Source: Paenibacillus sp. FSL K6-3182 (GTDB lineage: Bacteria; Bacillota; Bacilli; Paenibacillales; Paenibacillaceae). Taken from it: a DNA stretch of 64,000 nt. The DNA is taken from contig NZ_CP150265.1 of assembly GCF_037976325.1 (NCBI RefSeq), positions 5,841,001-5,905,000 of the forward strand, in the 5' to 3' direction. How positions within the stretch are numbered: position 1 is the stretch's first letter; each line of letters starts with the position of its first letter. The notes under the pieces were generated by a model. The model searched no databases. It was not told the origin of the DNA and saw only the letters and a list, made by a program, of their open reading frames with translations. Shown here in pieces: positions 5,687-59,721 of this stretch. The position numbers and the translations under genes were made by a program.

Positions 5687-5718
5687 GTTAGCAAACATAA
5701 CGGAATGAGGATCAATCG

Positions 5719-15059: not shown

Positions 15060-15077
15060 CTCGCTGCTTACGATTAT

Positions 15078-16546: not shown

Positions 16547-16605
16547 CTAATAATAGGAAGGGACTTAGGAAGAACGATGATGTCCTCCCCTTATTATACT
16601 TATAG

Positions 16606-38620: not shown

Positions 38621-38623
38621 TAA

Positions 38624-38826: not shown

Positions 38827-38880
38827 TTGGCAATCGCGTCGCTCTGCCTAAACTTCATCCATAAAACACAGAAATACAGA

Positions 38881-38932
38881 AGGGGCTGTTCCTAGCGTAG
38901 ATAAATCTACGTTTGGAACAGCCCCTGTTTAT
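38881..38932 (-). terminator. terminator for locus 3 importer operon
   Basis: AGGGGCTGTTCC (38881-38892) pairs with GGAACAGCCCCT (38915-38926), with an inner CGTAGA/TCTACG stem. T-rich sequence follows on the minus strand. Confidence 0.88.
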
Positions 38933-41127: not shown

Positions 41128-42825
41128 TTATTTCGTTAAACTAGCATACCACTCATTAACTTCTTTCGTCATATCGTCGCCGCCGGATGACTTCCAGCTT
41201 TTCACGAATTCATCGAAAGCTTCAGCCGGTTTAGCGCCATAAATGATTTCGTTAAACGTTTGAGCTTCAATTTTTTTCAAATAGTCCATGCGTGATTTCA
41301 TTGTTTTGGTAGGAGGTCCTACAAACATATCCTTCTTGGAAATCGCATCTTGCTCCATAACGACAGTTGCCGCAAGTGCCGTTTCCGGTCCATACTGTGC
41401 AACAACTTCCTTCTCGCGATAAGTTTTTGCTTCTTTACCGTCAGCTAGGTTAAGCAATGCTTTAAACTGTGCATCAGGAATACGCGCACCATCGCGTACA
41501 ATGAAATAACGTAGTGGAGCCGTAATGGCACCGCCTGGAACATCATCCAAGTACAGCGGTTTGCCGCTAGCATCAAGAGCGTAATCATAACCTTCAAAAG
41601 CGCCTAGCTCGAACGGGCTTCCTTCTTGCGGGTCCGCTAGGTTGTCGAATAGATAGTTCTCGTAAGTGAAGAAAGCTTCTGGATTTTTCATATCTTTATT
41701 GATCAGAATAACGCCATTTACAAAGGAAGTGCCGTGACGCATTGCTTTACCGTCTTCACCAGTTGGAATCGCATAAGGCTTCCATACTGCGCCTTCAGCA
41801 TTTTTTGCTGTATCCAGCAGCGGCCAGCCGCTCATCCAGTAAGGTCCAGGGATAATGCCTGCTGTTCCAGCTACAGCTGGTTCAGACGTTTTATTCTCAT
41901 CCCACAGTGCTGCTTCTTTCGGAATATAACCTTTGTCGCGCCATTCTTTAAGCTTAATTAGGCCTTGCTTCATTCCTGCGTTCGTAGAACCGTATTCCAA
42001 AGTTCCATCCGCTGCCACATTCCATTGTGCAGGAAGTGTGCCATATGCGCCAAATACCCATGATGGATCACCCATCCAAGTGTTCATCGACGTTTTAAAG
42101 CCAACGCTTAGTGGAACAACTTTTTCTGGCGACAATCCTTGTGGATTATTGTTTTTAAAAGCTTCCATTACCGTTTCCAGCTCAGCAATCGTTTTTGGAG
42201 CTTTCAAATTAAGCTTATCCATCCAGTCTTGACGAATCCAGAGCACATAGTCGTTGTTGTAAGCATAATCAAGTAAAGGGATACCGATTCGTTTTCCATC
42301 ACGCATGTAAGCATTCCATACGCTGGTATCAAGATTCATTGCCGCTTTCCATTTCTCGCCGGCATATTTATCGAACAGCTCGCCTGCGTCTTGGAACATG
42401 CCGGAGTCAATTAGATCTTGTGCCAGCAGCTTGTCGCCAACGACAGCAACATCCGGCATTTTTTGCCCTGAAGACATCGCAAGGCGCATTTTTGTTGCAA
42501 ATGCTCCATTTGTATCTGTCACAGACCAAAGGGAATCTACTTTAATACCAAGCGTATCGAGCGCCCATTTTGTTGCCACGTTGTTTTCAATCGTTTCTCC
42601 CTCACGGAAGGTTAGCGCAGGGTCGACTCCCCATACAGTGGAAATCGTAACCGGCGGATCGTATTTCTCTTTGTAAGGGTTTTCCTCATTGCCCGCGGTA
42701 GTGTTATCGCTTGGCTTATTCGACGGCTCTGCCTTGTTGCCGCTGTTCGAGCAGCCAATGATGGCTGATACGATTAGAAGCATACAAAGCATGAACGTGA
42801 ACCGTTTCTTTGTTTTCATATTCAT
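41128..42825 (-). CDS. extracellular solute-binding lipoprotein, locus 3
   Basis: The protein has 565 aa from the ATG at 42825 (GGGGG 6 nt upstream); the ATG at 42840 lies before that site. Lipobox SAIIGCSN (Cys near 24), Asn/Lys-rich linker, then LplA-like family 1 binding fold (PYWMSGWPLLDTAKNAEGAVWKP split by loops, FVNGVILINKDMKNPEAFF). It serves the two permeases downstream. The substrate may be a galactan fragment, inferred only from GH53 remnants upstream of its regulators. Confidence 0.92.
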   Translation of the reverse strand: MNMKTKKRFTFMLCMLLIVSAIIGCSNSGNKAEPSNKPSDNTTAGNEENPYKEKYDPPVTISTVWGVDPALTFREGETIENNVATKWALDTLGIKVDSLWSVTDTNGAFATKMRLAMSSGQKMPDVAVVGDKLLAQDLIDSGMFQDAGELFDKYAGEKWKAAMNLDTSVWNAYMRDGKRIGIPLLDYAYNNDYVLWIRQDWMDKLNLKAPKTIAELETVMEAFKNNNPQGLSPEKVVPLSVGFKTSMNTWMGDPSWVFGAYGTLPAQWNVAADGTLEYGSTNAGMKQGLIKLKEWRDKGYIPKEAALWDENKTSEPAVAGTAGIIPGPYWMSGWPLLDTAKNAEGAVWKPYAIPTGEDGKAMRHGTSFVNGVILINKDMKNPEAFFTYENYLFDNLADPQEGSPFELGAFEGYDYALDASGKPLYLDDVPGGAITAPLRYFIVRDGARIPDAQFKALLNLADGKEAKTYREKEVVAQYGPETALAATVVMEQDAISKKDMFVGPPTKTMKSRMDYLKKIEAQTFNEIIYGAKPAEAFDEFVKSWKSSGGDDMTKEVNEWYASLTK

Positions 42826-42928
42826 TGTAATCCCCCTCATGATTATGTTCTACATGCTTAATTATAGGCTTAGGGGCAATTTCAGCCTATGACACAAAGC
42901 GAACATATCAGCACCTTTTACAACCACT

Positions 42929-44569
42929 TTACTGTTCGCGAAACTCCTGAGGTGTCATACCATAATATTTTTTGAACGTTTTGCTAAAATATTGCGGATT
43001 CTGATAACCAAGCTCACTCGTTATTTCATATATTTTTTTGTTCGTATTTTTCAGCAAATAAAGCGCCCGCTCCATCTTCATTCCGATGATCCATTCACTT
43101 AAGCTTTCTCCCGTTTCCGCTTTAAATACTTTCGAGAGATAGACCGGATGAAGAAACACGCGATCAGCAATCGTTTTTACAGTCGTATCTAAGCTAAGGT
43201 TGTTCGCAACAATTTCCTGCACCTGCTTAACGATAAAGCTTTTGGAGCTCTCCTCTTTCACTGAGAGCACGCTTTGCAGCTTATGCAATACACCAATTGA
43301 CCAATCTTCCAGCCGATCAGGCGATAGTACAACCGTTTGATCCAAAATAAAATCGATACCCAGCTCATTGATTTGGGATACGTATTGGCCCTGTCTATGC
43401 GTAATATACATAAAAGCATTGGTAAGCGCTAAGTATACCTCGTATAGATGCTCTCTTGAGAATCTTGTATTTTTCAAATCGGCAAAAACATCTTTAATTT
43501 TCTGCTCTACCGCATCCCAGCGCTTCGACTCCAGCAAGGTTATCATCGTAGGCGGCTTATATAAGCTTTCCATCGATTTAACAAAAGTGTTGTCCTTGCC
43601 CGAGCGATCCTCCAAATAATGAATAGAGTGCTGTTCTTCATTTGCAATCATGAACATCGCCCCTAGACCTGAACGATACGCAGTCGTAATCGCACTTGGA
43701 AACTCGAACCAATCCGTAACGACAATGGAGATATCTCCTTTGAGATAGTTGCTCACATTTGTACGAAGCTTCTTGGTTGCTTCGGCAAGTATCGTTTTAC
43801 GTAAATTGCGGCTTTCCACACTATATTCTGACTTCTCGCCTGCTTCCGTTTTAGGCTGCGCCATAATAAGCAAATATTCATGTGGCGCTTTGCAATGCCA
43901 TACATGGAAATGCTGAGCAAACGACTCCTCCGCTATATTCCCTACGGCAAACTCCATAAGTGAGGAAGAGCTATAATCCAGATGTGAAAATTGTTTGCCC
44001 AGTTGGACGAGCATCATGACGGTTGGACGTTCTATCTCAAGAGAAATTTCGTATTGCGTCAGCTTCTCTTTAATCGTCTTTGGCGAAAGCTGTCTGCCTA
44101 ATACCAAGTCGACCATAAAATTGGCGCGCAGCACCTTGAAATCAGATTTGCGATCATACAGCAGCTGCTGATATTTCTCTGCCTGCTCCCATTCATCCTT
44201 TAACGCTTCGATTGCTCCCGATATCGTTTTCACAAATTCATCGTCATTTACCGGCTTTAATATATAATCAAATGCTTGAAGCTGAACGGCCTTTTTGGCG
44301 TATTGAAAATCAGAATGCCCTGTAAGCAAAATGCATTTGATGTTAGGCCAGCGCTGGCTGATCTCTTGAACAAGCTCAAGCCCGTTCATTTCCGGCATCG
44401 CAATATCGGTTACGACAATATCTATCGAGTTTTCTTCAAGAAGCTCCAACGCTTCAAAGGCAGATGTCGCTTGATACACGCTTTTCACGCCAATCGAGAG
44501 CCAGGGAATGGTCTTCTCCAAGCTTCCTGTAACATACGACTCATCATCAATCAATAAAATTTCAATCAT
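42929..44569 (-). CDS. YesN-type response regulator, locus 3
   Basis: The protein has 546 aa; AGGGG 8 nt before the ATG. Receiver: LLIDDES, phospho-acceptor Asp in VVTDIAMP (about 55), LLTGHSDF, ILKPVND. C-terminal AraC HTH (about 440-545): VKTIADRVFLHPVYLSKVFK and ITSELGYQNPQYFSKTFKK. It lies 21 nt after its kinase gene and upstream of the binding protein it probably activates. Confidence 0.93.
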   Translation of the reverse strand: MIEILLIDDESYVTGSLEKTIPWLSIGVKSVYQATSAFEALELLEENSIDIVVTDIAMPEMNGLELVQEISQRWPNIKCILLTGHSDFQYAKKAVQLQAFDYILKPVNDDEFVKTISGAIEALKDEWEQAEKYQQLLYDRKSDFKVLRANFMVDLVLGRQLSPKTIKEKLTQYEISLEIERPTVMMLVQLGKQFSHLDYSSSSLMEFAVGNIAEESFAQHFHVWHCKAPHEYLLIMAQPKTEAGEKSEYSVESRNLRKTILAEATKKLRTNVSNYLKGDISIVVTDWFEFPSAITTAYRSGLGAMFMIANEEQHSIHYLEDRSGKDNTFVKSMESLYKPPTMITLLESKRWDAVEQKIKDVFADLKNTRFSREHLYEVYLALTNAFMYITHRQGQYVSQINELGIDFILDQTVVLSPDRLEDWSIGVLHKLQSVLSVKEESSKSFIVKQVQEIVANNLSLDTTVKTIADRVFLHPVYLSKVFKAETGESLSEWIIGMKMERALYLLKNTNKKIYEITSELGYQNPQYFSKTFKKYYGMTPQEFREQ

Positions 44570-44590
44570 TTGAAAACCCCTTTTTTTTAT

Positions 44591-46306
44591 CTAGCTTGGT
44601 GACCAAGTAATCGTGACTTTTAGACCTCCAAGATTTGAGGATGAGAAGCTGACCCCTGCTGATCCGCGAAATCTTAAGTGCATGCGCTGATGAACATTCC
44701 ATAGCCCGCAGCCCATTTGCTCATCCATTTGATTTTGCATTTTGTGCTGAAGAATAAGAATATCCTCCATGCTCATCCCCTTGCCGTCATCCTCTACGAC
44801 AAGCCGTGCTCCTTCTTCATGCCACTCTCCCGTTATTTGAATAATAGATGCATCCGTCCATGCCTCAATACCATGAATAACTGCATTCTCAACGAGCGGC
44901 TGCAGCATCAGCGGCGGTATTTCAAGATGGCGCATATCCGCAGGCAAGCTGATCGAATACTGCAGTCGCGGCATGCGCATTTTTTGAATTTCCAAATAGC
45001 TGGTCACAAAATTAATTTCCTCTGACATCGCAACAAGATCGCGTTCCTGCCTTGTCGTATAACGGTAATAGTTGGACAAATGATGCGACATGGCAACGAC
45101 TGCTTCATTCTTTTCAAGCTTGGCCATACTCGAGATGAACGAGAAGCAATTATAGAAGAAATGCGGATTAATTTGTGATTGCAGCTGTTTTAAACGTGCT
45201 TCCCGCACATGAATTTTTTCCAAATATACCGTTTCAAACAGCTCTTGAATTTGAGCGACCATTAAGTTGAAGCGCGTATAAAGAAAACCAAACTCGCTCC
45301 TGCCGCGCGGCTTCATTCGAACCGAATAATCACCATTTTTCAGCTTCTGAAAACCAACGATGAGATGCTTAATAGGAACCTGTACCTGCGCATATAAAAG
45401 ATAAGCAGCGATGCAGCATAACAGCAATAAACCTGCCAAAGATACATAAAATAATTGATTAGTTTTTTGAATAGGCCGAATGATTTCGGAAATCGGAATA
45501 TAATCAATCAAATGCCAACCAATCGTTTCTGACTTCACGATATTGACCAAATATTTTTCCCCGCCCAAATCAATCGTACGGCTTTCCAAGTCCTGAAGCG
45601 GCTGTTGCTTCAACAAATGGATCACGTTGTTCGTCAGTTCCTTATCTGCCGAGCGATTATAAATAACGCCGACGCCTTCCAAATAATAAAATGGCTCTCG
45701 GCGGCCATCGCTCTTGAACTTGTCCAGCATATCTTTAATGTTCGAGCTGTCGAACTGCACCTCAATGACCAGGTTCGAGCTGCTTGGGTCCAAGTAACTG
45801 GAATACGGTGTTACCGCATAACGAGAGAAAACAAATTCATTATTTTCAGCAGCCTTCACTTGCCAGCCAGGCTTTAATCTTTTTTTCAAATCGGCGTCAT
45901 CATAAAGCACAACGTCATTATCCGAAATATCTCTATGGAGAATCGGTGAATAGATATGAAGGCTGCTTCGCCACTTCGATGAATTTTGCTGAATGGCCAG
46001 CTTCGTTTGAATTCGTTTGATCAAAGTAATCATGCCCAGACTCAGCTCCGGCATTTCCGTAAAAATATCGCGAAGCGACGAAATATCTGGGTCCTGTATC
46101 AATAAATCAGGCCAAAGGGCCATCGAATCGATGCTTGTATTGACTTGATTCTGAAAGAATAGGAGCTGATTCGTGTTCGACTTGTTAAGCTCCTCGCCAA
46201 GAATGTCGGTGCTGGTCTTATTAGAGTAGAAATAGAGCAGCATAATCGGAACCAGCATAATAATGATTAAAGCGACGATTTTAGTAAATAAATTAATTTT
46301 AGGCAT
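44591..46306 (-). CDS. YesM-type sensor histidine kinase, locus 3
   Basis: The protein has 571 aa from the ATG at 46306 (AGAGG 11 nt upstream); a GTG four codons earlier overlaps that site. Membrane segments at about 7-28 and 275-298, an extracellular sensor between them, HAMP, then QSQINPHFFYNCFS (His near 380) and HATPase motifs VENAVIHGIE and DDGKGM. The usual FLYN is FFYN here, a small but visible change beside the phospho-accepting His. Confidence 0.92.
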   Translation of the reverse strand: MPKINLFTKIVALIIIMLVPIMLLYFYSNKTSTDILGEELNKSNTNQLLFFQNQVNTSIDSMALWPDLLIQDPDISSLRDIFTEMPELSLGMITLIKRIQTKLAIQQNSSKWRSSLHIYSPILHRDISDNDVVLYDDADLKKRLKPGWQVKAAENNEFVFSRYAVTPYSSYLDPSSSNLVIEVQFDSSNIKDMLDKFKSDGRREPFYYLEGVGVIYNRSADKELTNNVIHLLKQQPLQDLESRTIDLGGEKYLVNIVKSETIGWHLIDYIPISEIIRPIQKTNQLFYVSLAGLLLLCCIAAYLLYAQVQVPIKHLIVGFQKLKNGDYSVRMKPRGRSEFGFLYTRFNLMVAQIQELFETVYLEKIHVREARLKQLQSQINPHFFYNCFSFISSMAKLEKNEAVVAMSHHLSNYYRYTTRQERDLVAMSEEINFVTSYLEIQKMRMPRLQYSISLPADMRHLEIPPLMLQPLVENAVIHGIEAWTDASIIQITGEWHEEGARLVVEDDGKGMSMEDILILQHKMQNQMDEQMGCGLWNVHQRMHLRFRGSAGVSFSSSNLGGLKVTITWSPS

Positions 46307-46521
46307 ATTGCTTTGCACCTCTGCTGGATGTCATTTGGGCTGCTGCTTAAAAATCATTTTCTTCCTCTTCACCATACGTGGACATTCCATTCAATTCAAC
46401 CCGTAAAATCGAAATGTATGTTATGTTTTTACAACCACTTTATTGCACAACATTTCTATTCTTTCAAAAAAAGAACCGGATTATCGGTTTTTACTCCGAC
46501 ATCCCAGTTCTTTCGTTTACG
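46307..46521. other. intergenic, upstream of locus 3 kinase
   Basis: No gene with a credible start was seen. ACCGATAATCCGG near 46470 resembles a weak hairpin. The region should contain the promoter of the kinase-regulator pair on the minus strand, but no clear boxes are visible. Confidence 0.35.
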
Positions 46522-47275
46522 TTAATTGTTATATTTGTACGCAAACATGGAGGGCAGCGCGTTTCCTTCAAAATCAAACAGCGTCGTGTTTATGCTGGGC
46601 TTATATACTCCTTAAATAGATTAGGTGCTAGCGAAATCGTTGTAATACCCGTATTGAAGATAATGGATTGCAGGTCCTCTTTGGCTAGATCGGCAATCTG
46701 TTTGCTTCAATATTGGCTACAATACCAGTAGCTCCCGCTGTCGGCAGCGCGTTAACCGTGATCGTGTGATCTTTATCGTTCATCGCTCCCTGCTTCAAAT
46801 CCACCTTTACAACCTGCGTTGTTGGCGTAGGTTGTGGCGTCACTGGCGTAGCCAGCGTCGTTGGTGTTGGCTCTGGCTCAACCTCTTCTGCCAGAACTAT
46901 CGTCACTCCCGATGTAGTCTGTTTATCGGTCACAACGATCCCAGCTGCTGTATTTGATTGATAACCTGCTTTGCTCGCTTCAATCGCATAACCTGTTCCT
47001 TGCGGCATATCTGATAAAGTGAATTCACCTGATGCATTGGTCACTGCCGCATATTTCACTCCGTTAACTACGGTTCTCACGACAGCATTCGCCAGCTTAT
47101 TGCCCCTTCGCCTTTTACCTCACCGCTAATCGCTCCGGTTCCTTCACCTAGGAATCCTAAGGCAACAGCATCAATTAATGCCCAGTTTACAGTATAGGCA
47201 TCAGCGTAGAAGCCAATAGTAAGCTCTCCATGCTCTGAGGTGAGCTCGTATCTGCTGAATATGGTCCATTATCGT
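46522..47275 (-). pseudogene. remnant of a multidomain secreted glycosidase (CBM C-half, CarboxypepD-reg domain, C-terminal tail)
   Basis: Read on the minus strand in three frames: the C-terminal half of a carbohydrate-binding module (GELTIGFYADAYTVNW) at about 47250-47170; after a frameshift near 47100, a carboxypeptidase-regulatory-like domain (TNASGEFTLSDMPQGTGYAI) and a Pro/Thr linker to about 46800; a surface-type domain that shifts frame again near 46700 (IADLAKEDLQSIIFNTGI); and finally NTTLFDFEGNALPSMFAYK with a stop at 46522, which resembles the end of GH53 enzymes. There is no start, signal peptide or catalytic domain. It appears to be the 3' half of a gene whose 5' part is at 52930-53600. 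Confidence 0.75.
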
Positions 47276-47351
47276 TCAGTTAACCGCACGCATTTGGTCG
47301 AGACGCTTACGTTCCTTCTCAGATAGTTCATTCATATTTTGAAAAGACCTG

Positions 47352-47903
47352 AATGTGGTATCGAATACGACATTGTTTGATTTTGAGGGTAAAGTATTGC
47401 CTGCTCATGATGCATACAAGCTGAATACTGAAGGATCTACCGTTAATTTTGAAGGAGCGACAGTCAAAGGTAACTGAAATATTGATTTGGCTGATAAAGC
47501 GAAAATGAGCGGTCAAGGTATAGTCGATATTAATGCCATTCAATCCGGAAATTCACAACAAGACGGACATACAAAAGATCAGATTATTTGAATGTTGCAG
47601 CAAACCCTGAAGCGACTTTCACGGTCAAATCCTTCGAGAATTTTCCTATGGAATGAAAAGAAGGAACGAAAGCAACCTATACGATGAATGGATCAATTAC
47701 TTTACGAGGAATATCGAAGTCGTGACTTTTGAAACAGAAGCATTATATAGCGATCACTTAAATTAGAAGGTAAAACGGTAGTGACCTTTAATGATTTCAA
47801 TATGAAAAATCCACATACCATCGTACTTGATACGGAGAATGATGTAACCGTTCAGTTCCAGCTCAATTTAAAGAATAGAATTTTGACTCCACGCCAGCTG
47901 TAA
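47352..47903 (+). pseudogene. degraded YceI-family protein
   Basis: Joined across frames, the plus strand gives a YceI-like lipocalin-type beta protein: YKLNTEGSTVNFEGATVKGN, MSGQGIVDINAIQSGN, ANPEATFTVKSFENFP, ATYTMNGSITLRGIS and GKTVVTFNDFNMKNPHTIVL. In-frame TGA stops occur at about 47484 and 47654, at places where Trp would fit, together with at least two frameshifts (near 47590 and 47720). No start codon with a ribosome site. YceI proteins bind isoprenoid-like lipids. The first codons (NTTLFDFEGKVLP) resemble the GH53 tail seen at 46522, so the 5' end is a chimera. Confidence 0.75.
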
Positions 47904-47920
47904 TCACAGCTGTTTTTTTG
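47894..47920 (+). terminator. short rho-independent terminator
   Basis: CAGCTG, a 6-nt loop and CAGCTG followed by TTTTTTT, overlapping the end of the YceI remnant. It probably also limits the converging AraC transcript. Confidence 0.7.
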
Positions 47921-47925
47921 TGTGA

Positions 47926-48777
47926 TTAAGTTTTCTCACTGGTTCGGCTCAATTTTCGATATTGAAGTGGTGAGATTCCAACCGTACATTTAAATATCCG
48001 TCCAAAATGAGTCAAGTTTTCAAATCCTACACGAGTAGCTATGTCTAACACAGATAATTTGGATTCCTGTAGAAGAGAACGAGCTTCTTTCATGCGAATG
48101 TTATTTAAGTACTCAATACATGTAAATCCAGTAACTTTCTTAAACGTTCGACTTAAATGAGAAGAACTTATACAAAAGCTTTGAGACAAATCAACTAATG
48201 ATAAACGCTTATCATAGTTAAGATTAATAAACTCCAAAATCCGATAAATTTTGTTATTTGCTCGATTCGACTCAATCTGGTAGTCGTTTAAACCCATATC
48301 TACTTTTCGTTTGAGAAACAGTAGAAGTTCCGTCAATAAGATTTTTTGGTAATAATCATAACCAGGTAATTTATTCTTATCTTCCTGAATCATTTTATTA
48401 AAATGATTTTCAATAAAGCTTTGGTCATATCCCCCTAGTTTAATTGCATTGGAATGGGAATGAAAATAGGAGAAAAGATTGCATCCTTCGTTTTCAATAA
48501 TAAAGGTACTAAGAAAGTCTTTTTTAAAAACTAAAGTTACTCTTTCGAAGGCAGCACCATTTAAATTAACCAGCTTGTGTAAGTCATTCATGTTGATAAA
48601 CAATAAAACTCCACTCACAATTTGGTAGGTTCTATTTTCGATATAATAGTAAATTTGACCTGAGATTAAATAGATAATTTCATAGGCATCGTGATAATGA
48701 GCAGAGGATATGCTGGAGTGAGTTTTCTTCTCACGGCTAATGTAAAACGGTAGAGATTCATAAAAATTGATTGCCAT
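47926..48777 (-). CDS. AraC-family regulator with cupin sensor
   Basis: The protein has 283 aa from the ATG at 48777, 9 nt after GGGAG. N-terminal cupin (about 20-100): SSAHYHDAYEIIYLISGQIYYYI, where the histidines may bind a ligand. C-terminal double HTH (about 190-280): LVDLSQSFCISSSHLSRTFK and IATRVGFENLTHFGRIFK. Noticeably AT-rich compared with flanking transport genes. It is divergent from the large metallophosphoesterase gene with about 245 nt between, so it probably controls it. Confidence 0.9.
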   Translation of the reverse strand: MAINFYESLPFYISREKKTHSSISSAHYHDAYEIIYLISGQIYYYIENRTYQIVSGVLLFINMNDLHKLVNLNGAAFERVTLVFKKDFLSTFIIENEGCNLFSYFHSHSNAIKLGGYDQSFIENHFNKMIQEDKNKLPGYDYYQKILLTELLLFLKRKVDMGLNDYQIESNRANNKIYRILEFINLNYDKRLSLVDLSQSFCISSSHLSRTFKKVTGFTCIEYLNNIRMKEARSLLQESKLSVLDIATRVGFENLTHFGRIFKCTVGISPLQYRKLSRTSEKT

Positions 48778-49022
48778 AGACAACCACTCCCTTTTTCAGT
48801 TGAGAGTAATATTCGAGGGGAAATCAAGTTTTGAAAACATTACATTTAGATCTACTGTTCATAGTATAACATCTTTCTCATTTCAAAAAAGGTTGTGCAA
48901 AGAAAATAGCAGTATACGTAGAAAATTAACTTTTTACGGAAAATAGGAAGAGATTGTATGTTCTATACTGCGATATATTGCAAATGAGACTTTCAAATAA
49001 AAATGGAAAAGAGGTAATACGG

Positions 49023-52000
49023 ATGAAAATTAAAATTTTTTTGAAAAGGAGATTACATTACGTCCTATCCGTTCTACTTGTTCTTGTTTTGATGCCATTC
49101 CATGCAATAGGAGCTGCAGTCGCATATGAACAACCAGTTGAGATGGGAATATCATCGCTTCCTGAAGTCATTGCGGAGTGGAACTTTACCAGCGCGGGAT
49201 CGCAAGGGATAATACCAGCATCGTCTGGTGTGAAACAACAAGTCTCTACCATTCAGGCAATTGGAGGTCCTACCTTCGAGGCACTTGTATCAACGGACAA
49301 TAGTATTAAATATCAAGGCTGGAACAATGGTGCAAACACGAAATATTGGTTAGCTACGCTATCTACGAAAGATTATGAGAACATTACTTTATCCTCTGAG
49401 CAAACGTCATCAGGGTCAGGCCCTCGTGATTTTAAAGTTCAAATGAGTACGGATAAACAATCATGGACGGATGTAACAGGTGGTGGGCTAACTTTAATAA
49501 CGAGCAGTTTTAACTGTACAACATGTAAACTACAGGATACACCTTTTCAGGCAAGCAATCAGAATTTATTATATATCCGCTGGCTGGTTACTTCTACTCA
49601 AGCCACGAACCCAAGTAATCCAGCTGTTGGTGCTTTCGGTTCAAGCTTACTAAAAGGTGTAATTGTTAAAGGTACTCGGATCGATGTCGGTACTGAAACA
49701 CCAACAAACGATGTAAACAGAACACCTGTAGAAAACGCTAGCGGTCAAACAGAAGATGCGCTCGTCTCAATTAAATTTAACAAAGGCATTAGCCTCAACA
49801 CAGGATATAACCCAACAATTATCGATAACCAAGGAACGGCATTAAATGGCCTAACGACAGCTGTGACTAATGATACTTTGATCATTAATCATCCTAATTT
49901 TGTGAATGGAATGACCTATACCGTAACGGTTCCTAAGGAACTTGTGAAAGGCGTTGATGGTGTAGCCCTTACATCCAACATTACGTGGAACTTTTCAATT
50001 AGAAATAATGCTACCAATGAGCCAATTGCTCTAGCAGAATGGATATTTGCAAACGGAGGGACCAACGGTAGTTTTCCAGCTACGAGTGGTCTAAACAAAT
50101 CAACATCCACATTTACAAACGTAGGTGGCGTATTTGAAGCTTACGATAGTGTCAATAAAGCGGTCAGCTATCAAGGCTGGAACGGCAGTGGAAGTAAATA
50201 TTGGCTTGCAGCCGTTTCTACATTGGGTTATGAGAACATCACTTTATCATCCATACAAAACTCTTCAGGAACGGGACCACGCGATTTCAAAGTCCAGACG
50301 AGTACAAACAATCAGACATGGCAGGATGTACCAAATGCAAATCTAAAGATGGTAATCTCAAGTTTTGATTGTGGCGGTAATACATGCAAACTATTAAACG
50401 TTCCGATTCCAAATGCAGCAAATCAGAATATGTTGTACATTCGTTGGTTAGTAAGTTCAAATGTAAATACCAAAGGTGAAGTGGGTTCTATAGGCAGCTT
50501 TGGTTCCAGCAGAATTAAAGATATTCGCGTAAAGGGGAGTCTAATCTCAGGAACTAATCCAGGGACTCCAACCATAGATGAAGTTGTCCAACCTGTAAAC
50601 GGTGCAGTAAATGTCCCAATTGGTAGTCCAGTTACTGTAAAATTCAATAAACCAATTAGCCTTGTTCAAGGGTACTCGGCAATAATTAAAGACAGTAGCA
50701 GCATCCCATTAAGCAACGTAACTTTTGAAATCACAAATAACAACACTCTAAAAATGAATCATCCCAACTTTGCAAGTGGTAAGACATATACAGTATCAGT
50801 ACCTAAAGAACTTATCAAAGGACAAGATAATTTACCTCTGATTCGAGATGTATCTTGGAGTTTTACCGTTCAGAGTTCGACTACTACACCAGTTATTCCG
50901 AAGTTAATCAATATGACATTTAATGGAGATCCGAAAACAAGTGTTGCACTTGCCTGGTATACGGATGTAATGACGGACACGGTCGTTCAAGTGATGCCAG
51001 CTTCTGCAGTACAGGGCGGTGTGTTCCCAGAGGTTGGTGCAACTACTTATCAAGGAAACTCGGAGAAAATTGAAACTTATGTGATCAAAGCAGACAGAAC
51101 TACAAAGAAGAAAACAAATTATTACGCTCATAAAGCTATCGCAAACAACTTAACCCCAGGAACTGCTTACAAATATCGTGTAGGTAATGGATCTTCGAAC
51201 AGCTGGAGTCAGATCGGCTCATTCACAACTGATACTTTAGCAAATCAACCCTATCATTTCATAGCAGGCTCAGATTCTCAAGCCTCTAGTCGATCCGGTT
51301 TTGAACCATGGGCAGATACTTTCAAGAAAGCGAAATTACAAATAGGCGATCCTAAATTTATTATTAACGCAGGTGATTTGGTAGACAATGGGGATTTGGA
51401 GGAGCAATGGCAATGGATGCTCGGTCTAGCACAGAATGAACTTACAACTGTGCCAATAGTTCCAGTGCTCGGAGGCCATGAAGTCGAGGATTATACTGGA
51501 GATGAGACCACACCAAACAATAACTTCTATAATCATTTTAACTTACCTAAACAGGTTATTACTGGTACTGACGATGGTTCTGTTTACTCTTTTGAATATG
51601 GAGATGCACTATATATCATATTTAATTCACAATATGAAGGAGGACTTAACAGTAACGGAACAGTGAAGTGGGTAGATCAACAATATTTGGATCAAGTGAA
51701 ATGGATGAAAAATGTCGTTGCAAAAAGTGATAAGAAGTGGAAATTCGTTACATTCCACAAAGGTCCTTATGGAGCAGGAGATAATTCTGGACAATATGAA
51801 GACGAAAGGGTTCAATTTTACAAGAAACATCTTGTACCTGCCTTTGATGAGATGGGAATTGATATGGTGTTTGAAGCTCACGATCATATGTATATGAGAT
51901 CTTTCCAAATGTATAATGATCTAGTTGTTCCACCATCACAAATTACAAAAGATAGTGAAGGAAATGCAATTAATCCTAAAGGCACAATCTATCTGATGTC

Positions 52001-52502
52001 GAATGCATTTGGAAATAAATTTTACACGAAGTATCCAGGTTATAATGATTATTTCGCAGCCAAAAATTTACAACCTAACAAAAAAATGTTCACCGATGTT
52101 TATGTATCCGATCAAGTGCTTAAATTTACAGCTTATACAGCTGCAGTAGCAGATGAAGGATCGGGCAATAATGGCGTAAAGGCATATGATAATTATGGGA
52201 TTAGAAGAACAGATGTTAAGCCAACGGTCGTTACGAATGCTAGTGTTGTACGAAATGATACTAACGCCGTTATTTCATGGAGCCCTCCTGTAGGAAGTAC
52301 AGAACCTGTTAGAGGTTTTAGAATCTATGAAAAAAATGACAAGGCGTCCAAACACTGGAGTGAGTATATCCCGGTAATAGCAGGTAGAACGCAGTACAGT
52401 TTTACTGTAAACAACGTGAATTCGACTACGAAATACGATTTTATCATTAAAGCAGTGGGTTCGAGATTAAATTCAGATCCTGTCGAGGTAAGCACAAATT
52501 AA
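49023..52502 (+). CDS. large secreted purple-acid-phosphatase-like metallophosphoesterase
   Basis: The protein has 1159 aa from the ATG at 49023 (AGAGG upstream). Signal peptide about 1-35. Two copies of a beta domain plus SbsA-type Ig-like domain: AEWNF near 48 and AEWIF near 335. A PAP-type Fn3 domain follows (about 625-735, SVALAWYTDVMTDTVV), then the metallophosphoesterase (about 740-1060) with GSDSQ, NAGDLVDNGD, VLGGHE, FHKGPYG and AHDHMYMRS, and a final Fn3 domain. The usual GNHE is GGHE, which changes a metal ligand. No LPXTG or S-layer anchor, so it is probably released. It may take phosphate from phosphorylated polymers or phytate-like compounds. AT-rich, likely transferred. Confidence 0.88.
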   Translation: MKIKIFLKRRLHYVLSVLLVLVLMPFHAIGAAVAYEQPVEMGISSLPEVIAEWNFTSAGSQGIIPASSGVKQQVSTIQAIGGPTFEALVSTDNSIKYQGWNNGANTKYWLATLSTKDYENITLSSEQTSSGSGPRDFKVQMSTDKQSWTDVTGGGLTLITSSFNCTTCKLQDTPFQASNQNLLYIRWLVTSTQATNPSNPAVGAFGSSLLKGVIVKGTRIDVGTETPTNDVNRTPVENASGQTEDALVSIKFNKGISLNTGYNPTIIDNQGTALNGLTTAVTNDTLIINHPNFVNGMTYTVTVPKELVKGVDGVALTSNITWNFSIRNNATNEPIALAEWIFANGGTNGSFPATSGLNKSTSTFTNVGGVFEAYDSVNKAVSYQGWNGSGSKYWLAAVSTLGYENITLSSIQNSSGTGPRDFKVQTSTNNQTWQDVPNANLKMVISSFDCGGNTCKLLNVPIPNAANQNMLYIRWLVSSNVNTKGEVGSIGSFGSSRIKDIRVKGSLISGTNPGTPTIDEVVQPVNGAVNVPIGSPVTVKFNKPISLVQGYSAIIKDSSSIPLSNVTFEITNNNTLKMNHPNFASGKTYTVSVPKELIKGQDNLPLIRDVSWSFTVQSSTTTPVIPKLINMTFNGDPKTSVALAWYTDVMTDTVVQVMPASAVQGGVFPEVGATTYQGNSEKIETYVIKADRTTKKKTNYYAHKAIANNLTPGTAYKYRVGNGSSNSWSQIGSFTTDTLANQPYHFIAGSDSQASSRSGFEPWADTFKKAKLQIGDPKFIINAGDLVDNGDLEEQWQWMLGLAQNELTTVPIVPVLGGHEVEDYTGDETTPNNNFYNHFNLPKQVITGTDDGSVYSFEYGDALYIIFNSQYEGGLNSNGTVKWVDQQYLDQVKWMKNVVAKSDKKWKFVTFHKGPYGAGDNSGQYEDERVQFYKKHLVPAFDEMGIDMVFEAHDHMYMRSFQMYNDLVVPPSQITKDSEGNAINPKGTIYLMSNAFGNKFYTKYPGYNDYFAAKNLQPNKKMFTDVYVSDQVLKFTAYTAAVADEGSGNNGVKAYDNYGIRRTDVKPTVVTNASVVRNDTNAVISWSPPVGSTEPVRGFRIYEKNDKASKHWSEYIPVIAGRTQYSFTVNNVNSTTKYDFIIKAVGSRLNSDPVEVSTN
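49150..50890 (+). repeat. tandem domain duplication inside the metallophosphoesterase gene
   Basis: Two roughly 860-bp units encode the same pair of domains. Matching points are AEWNF/AEWIF, YQGWNNG/YQGWNGS, GPRDFKVQMST/GPRDFKVQTST, NHPNFVNGMTYTVTVPKEL/NHPNFASGKTYTVSVPKEL. Protein identity is clearly higher than expected for unrelated Ig-like domains, so duplication within this gene is likely. Confidence 0.85.
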
Positions 52503-52619
52503 CGAAAGGCAAGGAAAGCTACGATGATTACTTCGAATCGAAATCATACTGATAAATAATTTCTCAAAAAATGGTCGATGGGAAGCATTAAAGCTTACTT
52601 TTAGTGAATAAGATTAACT

Positions 52620-52653
52620 GAGTCACTTTAATATTGAGTGGCTCTTTTTTTTG
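52620..52653 (+). terminator. rho-independent terminator of metallophosphoesterase gene
   Basis: GAGTCACT (52620-52627) pairs with AGTGGCTC (52637-52644, one G-T pair), followed by an eight-T run. Confidence 0.85.
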
Positions 52654-52778
52654 TATTATTCATTGATCCAGCAGATGATCAAAAGCTGCCAAAGCAAACT
52701 ACTATGGGCGAAAATGAGCGCCATGCGTGAAGCAAATTTCAAATAACTTTACTTCACAGAATACAGGTTCTATGAAGT

Positions 52779-52807
52779 GAAAAAAATAGACCGTAAAGAC
52801 AACGGTC
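52779..52807 (-). terminator. minus-strand terminator beyond the GH53 remnant
   Basis: GACCGT (52789-52794) pairs with ACGGTC (52802-52807), and TATTTTTTTC follows on the minus strand. It may be the original or a later terminator for the truncated glycosidase. Confidence 0.65.
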
Positions 52808-52929
52808 CTTGCATAACCAAGTATATATCGATGTAACAGAATGTTACAAATCAAATAAGATTCTCATTATTTCTTCATCACATTTTCGTTGCTTTATATC
52901 AGGAATATCTGATGTTCCTTCTCTATGTA

Positions 52930-53600
52930 CAAGGTATAAATATACTTTTGTATCATCCAAAGCTTAGCGCCATTCGTCCAGTAATCGCTATAGTGGAAGG
53001 ACAATTGAATTTGCAGACCTGCAGTTCTAGTGCGCTTCGCAAGCTTCAATATGTCCGATTGATCCATAATGCCTGCTGGGCGATAATAACTCCCGTCGCC
53101 GTGCCTTGCGATTCAACATAAGTAAGCTCTGAGACGTCGTCGCCCTTGCCTCTGAGGAACCCATATAACGGGCCAAAAATATAATTGGCATGCTGACCGC
53201 CGCTTTTTTTGCGACCATACTGTTAACGTGTAATAACCGTTCTCTAGTCCAGAAATCGTCTGTGAGCTTGTTACCTTATAATCTCGCTCAGAGGCAAGAG
53301 CCGATCTCCAGTGTTGGCCCTTCCGTTTGTAAGCTCCAATTGCCAATCGCTACTCCAACAGGCTGCAGCTCAACTAACTCCTCTTTAACAAGTGTAATCA
53401 GATCGATGCCGAGCCATTTGTCTGCCGCTCGATCTGCGTAGAAACCGATCGTTACCTGATTGTTTTCAATAACGACATGCATGCTAATTTTTGTCCACGA
53501 GGATGAGCTGACCGGAATATTAACCTTCGCTTCCGATCTTCCCGATCTTACTCTACTCAAAATCTTCGCCCCTTCATTCCAGTTATTGATCCTTGTGTCA
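52930..53600 (-). pseudogene. remnant of GH53 endo-beta-1,4-galactanase with tandem CBMs
   Basis: On the minus strand the frames join as follows: end of a first CBM (KVNIPVSSSSWTKISMHVV, VTIGFYADRAADKWLGIDL), start of a second CBM (SERDYKVTSSQTISGLENGY, YTLTVWSQ) after a shift near 53295, another shift near 53200 into SGGQHANYIFGPLYG, then a stretch like the start of a GH53 barrel (GDDVSELTYVESQG), and after a further shift DILKLAKRTRTAGLQIQ followed by LSFHYSDYWTNGAK. FHYSDYW is a strong GH53 signature (usually FHYSDFW). The reading frame is broken at least four times and stops before the catalytic glutamates. CBM type resembles those attached to GH53 enzymes. Confidence 0.78.
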
Positions 53601-53750
53601 TGTACAGCCTAAATAAGGCGCTGTCATTTTCTAAAAGAATTAATCGCTCTACTGAAGGTGCATCTATAACTTTAAAGCAAATGAATCTTTTTAGTAGCAA
53701 CACAAATGCAATATTTAAGCAGGTTTCATAGCCAATTCGGCATCTTCCAA

Positions 53751-53784
53751 CAAAAAAATCCCCCCTCGCTTCAACGAAGGGGGA
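53751..53784 (-). terminator. terminator of hflK-hflC operon
   Basis: ATCCCCC and GGGGGAT arms with an inner CTCG/CGA stem, followed by TTTTTTTG on the minus strand, directly after the hflC stop. Confidence 0.9.
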
Positions 53785-53790
53785 TAACTG

Positions 53791-54657
53791 CTATTGACCT
53801 AATAGTATTTTTGCATAAGGTGAATCGATAGGCATCATAATAACTGGCTCGTTTTTCAACGTCGTTGCATAGCTCTCCAACGTCCGATAGAAATTGTAGA
53901 ACTGCGGGTCGCTGCCGTATGCTTTATTATAAATCACGGCTGCTTCACGCTCGCCTTCAGCGACGATTTTTTTGGCATCAGCCTGCGCTTGCGCTAATAG
54001 TTCCGTAGCTGTACGATCCGCTTTGGAAGTAATCTTTCGCGACTCCTCATCACCTTCGGACAAGTAGCGTGCTGCGATCGATTGACGATCTGAAATCATC
54101 CGGTTGTAAACGCTTTGCTTGTTTTCTTCCGGCAAATCGGTACGTTTAATGCGAACATCGATAACTTCAATACCATAATTATCACGAGTCAACGCAGACA
54201 CAACATCCTTCGTAATCTCATCGTTTATATTGCCGCGCGCTGTGTTCTCACTAATGATATTATCGTAGTTGACCTCTGAGAGCTTACGGCGAACAGAGTT
54301 GTACACGGCCTCATCGATCCGCTGTATACCGCCGCTGACCGACTGCACCGTTCTTAAAAACTGTGATGCATTTGTAATGCGCCATACCGTATAGTTGTCT
54401 ACTACGATAGGCTTCTGATCCTTCGTTAGAATCGTCGTCGGCGTGCTTTCATATGTCATTTGATATTTCGGCAGCGTCGATACGTTCTCAATAAACGGAA
54501 GCTTAAATTTAAGGCCCGGCTCTGGCACAGCTCTCATCGCTTCACCAAATCGAAGCACAACCTTATATTCGCCTTCCTTCACGATATACATCGAGCCTGA
54601 GCCCAATATGACAACAATCAGTACAACTATAATTGTTAACCATTGGTTTCTTTTCAT
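53791..54657 (-). CDS. hflC: HflC, SPFH-domain membrane protease modulator
   Basis: The protein has 288 aa. One N-terminal membrane segment (about 5-25) followed by an SPFH/band-7 domain (YIVKEGEYKVVLRFGEAMR onwards) and a coiled-coil-rich region (SRKITSKADRTATELLAQAQ). With HflK it forms a large membrane cage that surrounds and modulates the FtsH protease. It overlaps hflK by 4 nt, giving coupled translation, and is followed by a terminator. Confidence 0.93.
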   Translation of the reverse strand: MKRNQWLTIIVVLIVVILGSGSMYIVKEGEYKVVLRFGEAMRAVPEPGLKFKLPFIENVSTLPKYQMTYESTPTTILTKDQKPIVVDNYTVWRITNASQFLRTVQSVSGGIQRIDEAVYNSVRRKLSEVNYDNIISENTARGNINDEITKDVVSALTRDNYGIEVIDVRIKRTDLPEENKQSVYNRMISDRQSIAARYLSEGDEESRKITSKADRTATELLAQAQADAKKIVAEGEREAAVIYNKAYGSDPQFYNFYRTLESYATTLKNEPVIMMPIDSPYAKILLGQ

Positions 54658-55724
54658 TGTGCGTCACCTCCTTGCGGAGCTTCTGTGACTGGCGGCGGCG
54701 TTGTTGCCGGCGGAGTCGTCGTGCTGCCGCTACCGCTGCGCAGCAATTCATTTAGTGGCAAATAATTTACGGTATCGCTGTTCGAATTCGTAATAAAGAT
54801 TTTCGCGTTCGGCAATATTTTTTCAAGCGTCTCCAGCACCAAACGACTTTGGGTAACATTCGGATTTTTTTTGTACTCGCCGAATATTGCATTAAACTTG
54901 GCAACGTCACCCTCGGCATTCAGAATCCGAGATTTCTTCTGTCCTTCGGCATTTTCAAGAAGCGCTTGCGCCTCGCCGCGCGCTTTCGGAATACGGTCAT
55001 TCTCATACTTCGCAGCGTTATTAATTTTGGTATTTTTCTCCTCGCGTGCATTCGTTACCTCACGGAAGGCCTCAGCCACTTGACCGCTTGGCGGCTCGAT
55101 ATCCTGGAACTTGATATCAATGATTTGTATGCCGGTTTTGTACTTGGACTGCAGCTCAATCAGCTTCTCCCGAACCTTGTCTTGGATCACTGTCTTACCG
55201 TCAGTAATGGCGTAATCAAGCTTCTCCGAGCCGATTACTGCACGAATCGAGGAGCTTGCTGCATTTCGCAGAAACTGCTCCGCATCGGAAATATTGTATA
55301 AGTAATCATGAATGTTGCTTATCTTCCATTGTACAACTGCATCCGCGGAAACAATGTTTTCATCACCCGTGATCATCATCGCTTCTTCATCATTTGGAAT
55401 GGCTTCTGAGCCCACTTGTCGATAACCGATATGAATCCGCTGTGTCAGCTCCGCTTTTACAATTTTGACATCTTGAATCGGATAAGGCCATTTAAAATGC
55501 AAACCTGCTGAAGTTTCATTCGAATACTTGCCAAAGGTTAAAATGGCTGCCCGTTCCTGCTCCTGTACTGTGTAAAAGGAGGTTGTTCCTAAATAAATGA
55601 CAATAACTGCGGCGACGATACCGAATACGATTTTTTTAACCGTACTTGGCTTTAGCTCTGGCGGCCTTCGACCGCTCATGCTGTGATTCTCGCCTAGGTT
55701 CTGATTTTGATCTGTAAAGCTCAA
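54654..55724 (-). CDS. hflK: HflK, SPFH-domain membrane protease modulator
   Basis: The protein has 356 aa. The start is the TTG at 55724, with AAGGGGAG 6 nt upstream; codons further upstream in frame lie inside that site. Polar N-terminus with Gly/Pro, membrane segment about 25-45, SPFH domain (YTVQEQERAAILTFGKYSN), helical coiled coil with EEKNTKINNAAKYEND and a Pro/Thr-rich tail (TTTPPATTPPPVTEAP). First gene of the two-gene operon. Confidence 0.93.
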   Translation of the reverse strand: MSFTDQNQNLGENHSMSGRRPPELKPSTVKKIVFGIVAAVIVIYLGTTSFYTVQEQERAAILTFGKYSNETSAGLHFKWPYPIQDVKIVKAELTQRIHIGYRQVGSEAIPNDEEAMMITGDENIVSADAVVQWKISNIHDYLYNISDAEQFLRNAASSSIRAVIGSEKLDYAITDGKTVIQDKVREKLIELQSKYKTGIQIIDIKFQDIEPPSGQVAEAFREVTNAREEKNTKINNAAKYENDRIPKARGEAQALLENAEGQKKSRILNAEGDVAKFNAIFGEYKKNPNVTQSRLVLETLEKILPNAKIFITNSNSDTVNYLPLNELLRSGSGSTTTPPATTPPPVTEAPQGGDAQ

Positions 55725-55876
55725 AGAAATCTCCCCTTCCAAGCATCTTTTATATGGCTATAGGGGATAATACGCGAAAACGATGAAAAAGTAACCGATT
55801 TTGTCATATTTTTCTTAGCTTTCGTATTAAATAGCTCATTTCCTGCATTTTACTTGCTATTAATCCATTTTAGTCG

Positions 55877-57940
55877 CTATTGCGCCTGTACATAGAGCAG
55901 CAGCTTAGACTCCGATGGTGCCAGCTCAATGCGATGTCCATCGCCCGCTGTCACGGCTTGCCCCTCCTGTCCACTCCACAAATCCCGAACGACTATCCCC
56001 TTAGAGGAATCTATGCCCATTCTTTCAAATGATGCGTGCAACAAGCTTTCCTTCTCTACTTCGAAATTAAAAGCAGCGACGTAAGTCCCTTCCACAGCAC
56101 GCAGCATGAACAGATTTTCACTTTTGTTCCCACTGCTGCACTCAACGGGACGGAAGGTTACACCTCGCTTAGCTAACGCCATGATTTCTGGATTTGTCAT
56201 CCATTCTTTGGCTCGCCGCGCTGCCTCCTCCATTCGGTAATCATCGCCGAGCAGTAGCGAGGTACCCGCAATCACTGCACTGTTCAAACGGCTTCTCCCT
56301 TCATGCTCGCTAATCGCACGCTGGTTGTCGCTTTTATAGAGGACAACATGATCGGGGTCGTTGAAACGATACAAGCTATCGTTAATCCACCAGCCATACG
56401 TTAACGCGTTAAGCATATATTCGGTATCATCGATCGTTCCGAATGCATCACAGGATACACGGCGGCTGTGTGCATAGCCATGCGGAAATAACGGAGCAAT
56501 AGACAGATTAATTAAGAACGGTCTGCCAATTTTCTCAGGATTCAGTGTCTCACGTACACAAGCCATACCTTTGTTGTACGCCTGTATTCCTGTTCTTATA
56601 TTGGGGTCATAGAAAACGCCTTCCATTGCGCCATGCGTCAGAAAATCCAGCTTAACATAATCAAAGCCCTGCTCTACAAAGCTCTCCAGCCTTTTTCTAA
56701 TTCGCTCCAGCGCGACTGGATGCGATGGATCTATCGCAAAAGCGCCATCCAGCTTCGGCAGCGGCTGTCCGGCTGCATCCTTGATCAGAATCTCACGGTA
56801 AAGCACTGTCCCATCTGTTCCTTCTACGGGCGTATCCGGATCGTTGCCCCAGAAAGCGAATGGCGTATAATAAGTGCCCGGCTTTTGACCGTTCGCCTTT
56901 ACCCGTCTTAGTGCGTCCTTTAGCTGCTCTTCCGATAAATTGTCCCAGAAGGAGTCGAAGTTGACGTAAAGGCTTCCCTGATCGTCAGCAAAGCTGTTTT
57001 GCTGCAAATGTTTGGAGAAAAAATCAGATGTATACGTATACACATCATAATCAAGCTTGCCCATGACGGCTGACCAGCTGTTCCAGCCCATCGGTACGCC
57101 GCCTTCCCAACGAAGTGCTGGTGTCAATACGGCATTCGCCTTGCCATACACTTCAAGCCCATCGCGGTAATCCGAGAACGCACCGACAAAAATCGTCGGA
57201 GAAACAATGCTTTTACCGCGAATTGTTCCGTGTGCAATTGTATCTCTTGTCTGCATATCAGCGGCTCCGCCATAAACGCGCAGCCTGCCCAGATCCTCAG
57301 GGAACGTCCCTTCCACAATAACGCCTGTTTTCCAAGTATCATGTGTGACTGATCCAATAACAAATCCGTTTCTGCTTTGCGCACGATAAATGGCGGTTGT
57401 CTCATAGCTGTGTACGCTGCAAGGAATAGCATGTGAGGCAAAACGAACCCATTTGTCATTATCGAATGGAACGAATAACGCCCTGATTTCCTCGCTGGCA
57501 CCTGCATCTGCTCCAAATTGTGCAATACTTCCATCATTTAAATATGCGGCTAGCGGCGTGATTTCATTCGTTTCCCATTCGAGCTCGCTTTCCACTTCAA
57601 GCTCCATCAACAAATAAGGCAGCTGCTCGTACATACGGAAATGCTGACGCATGAATGGCTTGCCAAGCTCTTCATGCTCAAAGCTCCAGTGCAGCCCTTT
57701 GCCAAATCCATCCTCAATGGCGTGGGTAGACGTTTCGTTTACAACATGCTTGCTGTAAAAAGTAGAGCGAAGCTGCTCCAAACCATAACGTGCTTCGGCA
57801 TAAAGGCCAACCAGCGCCGCGCCGCTGCTCCACTTCAGCGATACATGCCCATCCGTCAAATGTACGGTTGCCTGAATGACTCCGTTATCAACAACATATT
57901 CCTCCATGCGCTGCTCCAGCTCGAATTGCCCAATCTTCAT
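55877..57940 (-). CDS. GH36-like alpha-galactosidase
   Basis: The protein has 687 aa; AGGAG 10 nt before the ATG. Beta-rich N-terminal domain to about 280, then a barrel beginning PMGWNSWSAVMG (about 290) and with YVKLDFLTHG (putative nucleophile Asp near 430) and a likely acid/base region RVSCDAFG/IDDTEYM near 500. The family is GH36/GH27-like; the bacterial GH36 KWD motif is KLD here, so subgroup assignment is open. No signal peptide: cytoplasmic hydrolysis of imported alpha-galactosides (raffinose- or melibiose-type). Last gene of the locus 4 operon, after the binding protein. Confidence 0.88.
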   Translation of the reverse strand: MKIGQFELEQRMEEYVVDNGVIQATVHLTDGHVSLKWSSGAALVGLYAEARYGLEQLRSTFYSKHVVNETSTHAIEDGFGKGLHWSFEHEELGKPFMRQHFRMYEQLPYLLMELEVESELEWETNEITPLAAYLNDGSIAQFGADAGASEEIRALFVPFDNDKWVRFASHAIPCSVHSYETTAIYRAQSRNGFVIGSVTHDTWKTGVIVEGTFPEDLGRLRVYGGAADMQTRDTIAHGTIRGKSIVSPTIFVGAFSDYRDGLEVYGKANAVLTPALRWEGGVPMGWNSWSAVMGKLDYDVYTYTSDFFSKHLQQNSFADDQGSLYVNFDSFWDNLSEEQLKDALRRVKANGQKPGTYYTPFAFWGNDPDTPVEGTDGTVLYREILIKDAAGQPLPKLDGAFAIDPSHPVALERIRKRLESFVEQGFDYVKLDFLTHGAMEGVFYDPNIRTGIQAYNKGMACVRETLNPEKIGRPFLINLSIAPLFPHGYAHSRRVSCDAFGTIDDTEYMLNALTYGWWINDSLYRFNDPDHVVLYKSDNQRAISEHEGRSRLNSAVIAGTSLLLGDDYRMEEAARRAKEWMTNPEIMALAKRGVTFRPVECSSGNKSENLFMLRAVEGTYVAAFNFEVEKESLLHASFERMGIDSSKGIVVRDLWSGQEGQAVTAGDGHRIELAPSESKLLLYVQAQ

Positions 57941-57971
57941 CTCTCATCCGCTCCTCTTTTATAATGGAAGA

Positions 57972-57990
57972 AGGCCGGCAGCGCCGGCCT
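57972..57990 (-). other. intercistronic GC-rich stem-loop after locus 4 binding protein
   Basis: Perfect 8-bp stem AGGCCGGC/GCCGGCCT with a 3-nt loop, 20 nt past the binding-protein stop and before the GH36 gene. No strong T run follows, so it is probably an RNA stabiliser or weak attenuator. Confidence 0.7.
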
Positions 57991-58010
57991 CCTTTATGCT
58001 TGCATTATGT

Positions 58011-59627: not shown

Positions 59628-59655
59628 AGTATAAATCCCCCTCGTAAGTGATTCT

Positions 59656-59661
59656 ATTATA
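59656..59661 (-). promoter_or_regulatory. possible internal -10 box upstream of binding protein
   Basis: A perfect TATAAT on the minus strand in the 94-nt gap between permease and binding-protein genes, but the -35 position (CTTAAA) is poor. It could be an activator-dependent promoter that raises binding-protein and GH36 expression. Confidence 0.35.
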
Positions 59662-59721
59662 GTACATTTTCATCCCTATTTAAGCGTGATCGGCATCACC
59701 TCCAACAAAGTTCCCGCTTCA

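Follow-up and report, generated by a model that had tools for sequence, protein, structure and literature searches.

The chromosomal stretch analysed here, referred to as the window, comprises 64,000 nucleotides of the soil bacterium Paenibacillus sp. FSL K6-3182 (contig NZ_CP150265.1, positions 5,841,001 to 5,905,000; G000:C1:5841001-5905000), whose genome (G000) is a single contig of 7.56 Mb, 99.99% complete, with one assembly as its source. Downstream of hflC, positions 46522 to 53600 of the window hold the broken remains of two genes for galactanases of glycoside hydrolase family 53 (GH53), lying around an AT-rich block of 5.7 kb that includes an intact AraC-family regulator gene and an intact gene for a secreted metallophosphoesterase. 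The locus was compared with that of a conspecific yardstick, Paenibacillus sp. FSL A5-0031 (G033; contig NZ_MRTD01000005.1, locus L017), and with samples of 51 genus genomes, 394 family-wide genomes and 64 fetched hflC loci, some of which end at contig ends. Nothing on this locus was found in the literature among the matches listed.

Remnants of two GH53 genes

In G033 the interval from hflC to the sensor-kinase gene consists of two intact tandem GH53 genes, encoding proteins of 1907 and 491 amino acids (aa). The larger gene (L017:8495-14218, 5,724 bases) codes for modules resembling carbohydrate-binding modules (CBM), a GH53 barrel, CarboxypepD_reg modules and three C-terminal SLH stretches, the SLH part beginning at about residue 1718. 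The name CBM and any CBM family number are provisional assignments made by eye or from general background, and only the last module of the CBM-like region of G033 matched a solved chain, galactanase 9fli. A related architecture is that of the Paenibacillus sp. JDR-2 galactanase, given as GH53/BIG4/2CBM4,9/3SLH in a table of PMC4765114.

The flanks place the window remnants at the same site: alignment with G033 gives 95.7% identity over 53552-60000 and 98.0% over 42413-46590, and seven flanking genes differ at 5.0-8.7% of third and 0-0.6% of second codon positions. On the right lie intact hflC and hflK (53791..55742, minus strand; Band_7), which equal their G033 counterparts in length, differ from them at 25/289 and 21/363 third positions respectively, and are 0.7-4.0% different in 150-base steps; on the left is an intact sensor kinase gene (44591..46318, minus strand; His_kinase; 29/576 third positions different). 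G033 is thus a related strain with the intact gene in the same place between flanks about 96-98% identical, and the comparison bears out the view of the initial annotation that a large secreted GH53 gene has been destroyed here.

What is left of the large gene amounts to seven pieces with 1,334 aligned of 5,724 bases (about 23%). As had been noticed at the outset, minus-strand GH53 remnants stand on both sides of the block, at 52962-53544 and 46587-47279; the left remnant matches the intact G033 gene with E 2.8e-80, and within the right remnant the best-matching piece reaches E 9.5e-63, both far beyond chance. The right remnant does contain, as proposed, CBM-like modules and the front of the barrel. 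Reading along the minus strand, a leader region (53553..53790) aligns from just past the hflC stop with several insertions or deletions relative to G033 (the BLAST piece covering it, 53552-53900, is 69.7% identical) and is followed by the second CBM-like module (53320..53544, 83.6% to L017:9531-9755), the third (53142..53292, 76% to L017:9857-10005), the barrel start DVSELTYVESQG (53103..53148, 91% to L017:10168-10213) and a further barrel fragment (52962..53107, 84% to L017:10317-10463). This last fragment matches only positions 59-96 of the 340 of the PF07745 profile (1e-7 in the window, 2.8e-6 genome-wide), with scores of 28.4 and 31.7 bits that exceed the curated cut-off of 24 and place it in the family; a 63-residue CBM-like stretch of the right remnant matched no Pfam family.

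To the left of the block, also on the minus strand, lie a barrel scrap LNDNGPYSADTSSPQ (47236..47279, 84% to L017:10988-11031) and a longer piece (46587..47236, 68.9% to L017:12640-13343) with the C-terminal half of a CBM-like module, a CarboxypepD_reg module (PF13620, 1.9e-11), a linker and the region following it. A piece of the barrel end (47350..47440, 84.6% to L017:11181-11271) is inverted, lying on the plus strand. The part order agrees with that of the SLH-anchored Paenibacillus GH53 galactanases as represented by G033 (CBM-like modules, GH53 barrel, CarboxypepD_reg); unlike these, the window keeps about a quarter of the gene in scattered pieces, and its catalytic core and SLH part are gone. 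None of the SLH domains is left, the window jumping from L017 position 13343 to 15824, beyond the SLH part. The GNE and METG motifs, which we take to carry the two catalytic glutamates of the GH53 barrel, lie in G033 at L017 10616-10627 and from 10934, within a stretch (10463-10988) with no counterpart in the window. A six-frame search of 46300-53900 showed neither motif in the remnants, the single GNE there being on the plus strand inside the AraC gene. Since the stretch with the catalytic motifs is missing and the motifs were not found, the window holds GH53 remnants and no GH53 enzyme.

The second gene is represented by its last 69 bases (46522..46590, minus strand), which are joined to the large gene at AACA and are 99% identical to G033 over 71 bp and 94% identical to G029. 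This end belongs to the 98% match that extends into the left flank, and divergence from G033 falls from about 31% to 2% at the junction. The gene is of the stand-alone GH53 endo-beta-1,4-galactanase type (491 aa in G033; 490 aa in G029 and G006) and precedes the kinase/regulator pair in the window as it does in G033 and G029; its last bases are 98-99% identical to G033, but about 95% of the window gene has been deleted. The left remnant had been described as a CBM half, further surface domains and a GH53-like tail: the CBM-like half, CarboxypepD_reg module and linker are there, while the tail is the end of this separate gene.

Multiple breakage

Since G033 stands in for the unbroken sequence, the positions of breakpoints and the lengths of microhomologies are approximate. 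Besides the block, five deletions lie inside the large gene, with L017 breakpoints 8719|9531, 9755|9857, 10005|10168, 10213|10317 and 11031|12640; the fusion of the large gene to the small one corresponds to L017 breakpoint 13343|15824 and has a 4-bp microhomology (AACA). Of three junctions measured in all, the other two, both at deletions, have microhomologies of 5 bp (AAGGC) and 2 bp. By this alignment the breakage is multiple, and not that of one gene cut once: both main remnants do derive from one large gene, as first proposed, but they are not clean halves of it.

These junctions bear directly on the original explanation, in which 5.7 kb of DNA entered an intact galactanase gene in one event, splitting it, and the gene later decayed. 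The two main remnants do flank the block in gene order and the block is lower in guanine plus cytosine (GC) content; against this, about 520 bp of the barrel are absent between them, an inverted barrel piece and unrelated scraps lie at the block edges, the ends are not reciprocal, and the left end runs into another GH53 gene that was itself lost and fused. We regard a single insertion as very unlikely, and a simple insertion mutation by a transposon or island was rejected on the missing barrel stretch, the inverted piece and gene ends that are not contiguous. An assembly or sequencing artefact is hardly credible: there is a single assembly of the strain, but it is a nearly complete single-contig genome in which long intact flanking genes stand in G033 order and the AraC and phosphoesterase genes are intact.

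A diverged allele of the large gene

The remnants differ from G033 at 64/452 first, 42/450 second and 181/449 third codon positions. The third-position divergence of 40% is roughly five to eight times the 5-9% of the flanking genes, with 9-14% at first and second positions, and this excess argues that most of the divergence accumulated while the gene was functional. Over the remnant columns, identity to the window is 78.6% for G033, 68.3% for G046, 67.5% for G032, 66.0% for G022 and 65.4% for G018, and that of G033 to the last four is 67.1-70.4% (highest for G046, 70.4%). The branch leading to the remnants exceeds the functional branch only slightly in length, which suggests that the break-up is recent. 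The pieces are uneven: identity to G033 is 73.8% for the longest (46591-47235) and 77-92% for the rest, and for one 44-base piece G018 (86.4%) is slightly closer than G033 (84.1%).

A fast-decayed copy of the G033 allele would share position and domain order with G033, as the remnants do, and would have G033 as nearest relative, as they have; decay would, however, hit all codon positions and would not exceed the neutral divergence of the flanks, so the third-position excess contradicts it, as do the branch lengths over the remnant columns. We consider this explanation highly improbable, and with it the simple decay of the species' usual copy that the initial annotation implied. On the codon pattern, the remnants appear to come from an allele or xenolog that is deeply diverged and still functioned until recently, and we conclude that the large gene was exchanged for a distant allele either in the window strain or in G033.

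The AraC/metallophosphoesterase pair

The contents of the block were correctly recognised from the start: an intact AraC gene, an intact metallophosphoesterase gene and a broken YceI gene. The AraC-family regulator (47926..48783, minus strand; HTH_18, 1.2e-23; 85-86% aa identical to G041 and G042) is divergent from the phosphoesterase (48954..52502, plus strand; 84-85% aa identical to the same genomes), which has two stretches of Big_5, Pur_ac_phosph_N, Metallophos, fn3 and, by eye, a signal peptide. From these domains and the arrangement, the pair probably supplies an AraC-regulated secreted phosphatase. The pair spans about 4.6 kb, with a GC content of 0.375 against 0.435-0.462 in the flanks; the corresponding loci of G041 and G042 have 0.393 and 0.395.

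Near-full-length copies of the pair occur in 3/51 genus genomes (the window genome and, at about 83% identity, G041 and G042, which belong to two other species), with other neighbours in each. The matches in G041 and G042 span 47936-52502 and 47936-52494, ending near the two stop codons, and neither genome has a GH53 match. The pair therefore appears to be an independently moving unit with sharp ends at unrelated sites elsewhere; its presence in genomes where no GH53 gene is disturbed, named beforehand as a finding that would tell against an insertion, speaks for such a unit and does not refute its arrival here. In the family-wide search the same arrangement was present at lower identity in G128, G207, G244, G250, G263 and G275; 72/394 genomes matched the query 47441-52502 at E 1e-20 or better, and the phosphoesterase alone occurs in many more than the pair. 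Third-position differences to G042 are 102/285 for AraC and 395/1173 for the phosphoesterase (34-36%), compared with 154/288 for hflC and 205/356 for hflK (54-58%); that the pair is less diverged than hflC/hflK points to horizontal transfer, and it was probably acquired from another Paenibacillus lineage. A plasmid origin of the block was considered and set aside, the plasmid collection having given no match.

A second metallophosphoesterase of the same kind is encoded elsewhere in the window strain's genome (L051:1416-6929, in G000:C1:5628001-5640000), where it is fused to GH8 and three SLH stretches in a protein of 1837 aa; its G033 counterpart (L052) has 1813 aa.

Scraps at the block edges

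Between the pair and the GH53 remnants lie pieces of three other genes. The YceI gene (approximately 47440..47875, plus strand), whose 5' part was not found, is 68% identical to a gene of G013 (L049, open reading frame (ORF) 5063-5749; PF04264, 4.4e-26) and 71% to G360. A YceI relative in G004 (L050:2717-5249; PF04264, 7.7e-27) lies directly upstream of a His_kinase gene with the same domain make-up as the window kinase at 44591-46318. A 62-bp scrap of a sensor histidine kinase gene (47284..47345, minus strand), from just before HisKA and with an 18-bp internal gap, was aligned to L072 and L073, whose ORFs match HisKA at 2.2e-13 and 8.1e-15, and is 97% identical over 33 bp to G275. These nearest relatives (L072:1469-1780 and L073:1422-1835) are short HisKA ORFs of 103 and 137 aa, a shortness which suggests that the kinase gene may be broken there too. 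On the right, about 125 bp (about 40 codons) at 52837..52961 (minus strand) are the 3' end of an ORF of unknown function, 89% identical to G281 (L075), 76% to G193 (L077) and, over a 64-bp stretch, 88% to G040; neither the L075 nor the L077 ORF matches a Pfam family, and a SEC-C label for this ORF was dropped for that reason. Between it and the phosphoesterase (52503-52836), the sole similarity is a terminator-like stretch, 76% identical to G040. When 115 bases of the left edge were searched with E values up to 10 allowed, many matches arose by chance, and these were discarded.

No mobility gene was recognised by eye among the ORFs of at least 80 aa (of the block, the AraC and phosphoesterase genes were run against Pfam), and inspection by eye found no target duplication.

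Assembly of the locus

We think it likely that the region downstream of hflC is a wrecked two-gene GH53 locus in which a diverged allele was broken by deletions and an inversion and an AraC/phosphoesterase pair was acquired. The starting point would have been a large SLH-anchored galactanase gene, present as a deeply diverged allele or xenolog, next to an ordinary small GH53 gene. Both would then have been destroyed by several short illegitimate deletions, two with 4-5 bp microhomology and one of them fusing the genes; a small piece of the large gene would have been inverted; and the intact pair of about 4.6 kb would have been acquired at the spot, with or beside scraps of other genes. The outcome is a genome that has no intact GH53 gene and keeps the neighbouring kinase, regulator, binding-protein and permease genes. 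The initial observation thus proves largely right and its interpretation half right, there being two genes, multiple breakage and an allele unlike that of the species' other genome.

Several points weigh against this account. Deletions alone leave the inverted piece of barrel unexplained, as well as the scraps of kinase, YceI and unknown ORF; neither a mobility gene nor a target duplication was recognised that would point to a vehicle of acquisition; and the pair may have arrived before or after the genes broke. The call of transfer is based on one yardstick gene pair (hflC/hflK) compared with one genome. G029, 92% identical in the hflC region, has the small gene only, so that G033 could itself be the receiver of an odd large allele, and it is their gene neighbourhood that suggests a part in galactan use for the retained kinase and transporters.

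The scraps could also be read as a patchwork produced by repeated microhomology capture of short outside DNA, for example by DNA uptake, and not by deletion of resident genes. Short pieces of three unrelated genes (62 bp of the kinase, about 125 bp of the unknown ORF, about 440 bp of YceI) favour this, as does the fact that no second copy of the scraps was found in the strain's own genome among the candidates scored (5/25 and 2/43 in two of the searches); mosaic transformation outcomes in Bacillus subtilis are the subject of one paper (PMC13344027). The usual turnover of genes at a variable spot would leave the same traces, however, and no donor was found in which two of the scraps adjoin; we judge this origin of the block decidedly unlikely. 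The wider proposal, that foreign gene pieces of tens to hundreds of bases and the intact pair were captured by microhomology joining while the strain lost its galactanase genes and retained those for uptake and sensing, so that a former galactan degrader became a scavenger of galacto-oligosaccharides, is an unlikely one in our estimation.

Consequences of the loss

The only PF07745 match in the strain's genome is the 38-position remnant, so no intact GH53 gene is present and no GH53 galactanase is expected to be made. The kinase, the regulator, one binding-protein gene and one permease gene are kept and closely match G033. From the gene neighbourhood, the retained kinase, regulator and transporters may serve galactan uptake, and we infer that the strain would take up galacto-oligosaccharides freed by others instead of cutting galactan itself. 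Such a loss of a shared secreted enzyme with uptake retained would be of the Black Queen type. The locus offers a readable case in which a secreted-enzyme locus is lost within one species while the neighbouring sensing and transport genes stay, the broken copy is a distant allele of that in the species' other genome, and the AraC/phosphoesterase pair is seen as a unit at different sites across Paenibacillus genomes; with the genes intact in a same-species genome, the functional prediction is testable.

A variable spot beside hflC

Gene decay and horizontal exchange at variable chromosomal spots are well known, and we regard the locus as instructive but, in essence, an ordinary instance of genes being lost and gained at such a spot. 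As at other variable gene-exchange spots beside a conserved gene, the content downstream of hflC differs widely: it varies strongly among the 64 loci, 11 of which have GH53-like genes within the fetched stretch. The window differs from other variable spots in retaining scraps of several former occupants with no recognised mobility gene. Several relatives also hold DUF5107/TPR, GH2 and GH35 genes at the spot (domains tested in G026 only), neighbours that fit a galactan or galactoside locus. In G018 (P. luteus) a spore-germination receptor operon (L021:13088-16900; Spore_permease, GerA, Spore_GerAC) lies between hflC and the large GH53 gene and, by its position, appears to be a further gene gain at the spot. 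Across the genus sample, 40/51 genomes (the window genome included) have a PF07745 match and 11 have none, so it is not uncommon for a member of the genus to be without GH53.

A third GH53 gene of G033 (L157:6613-7698, 361 aa) is absent from the window genome at the matching place (L164 near 5847-5849; G000:C1:1394847-1394849). The site has sharp ends, position 6174 of L157 joining 7781, and G029 also lacks the gene there. In four other species this gene matched alone and its neighbours did not, so that it may have been gained in G033 or lost here. The search of L157 (5626-5964) against the window strain's own genome also met an interspersed repeat of up to about 300 bases, present in more than 20 places at about 69-92% likeness, with members in the window at 16579-16793 (plus strand) and 38618-38930 (minus strand).

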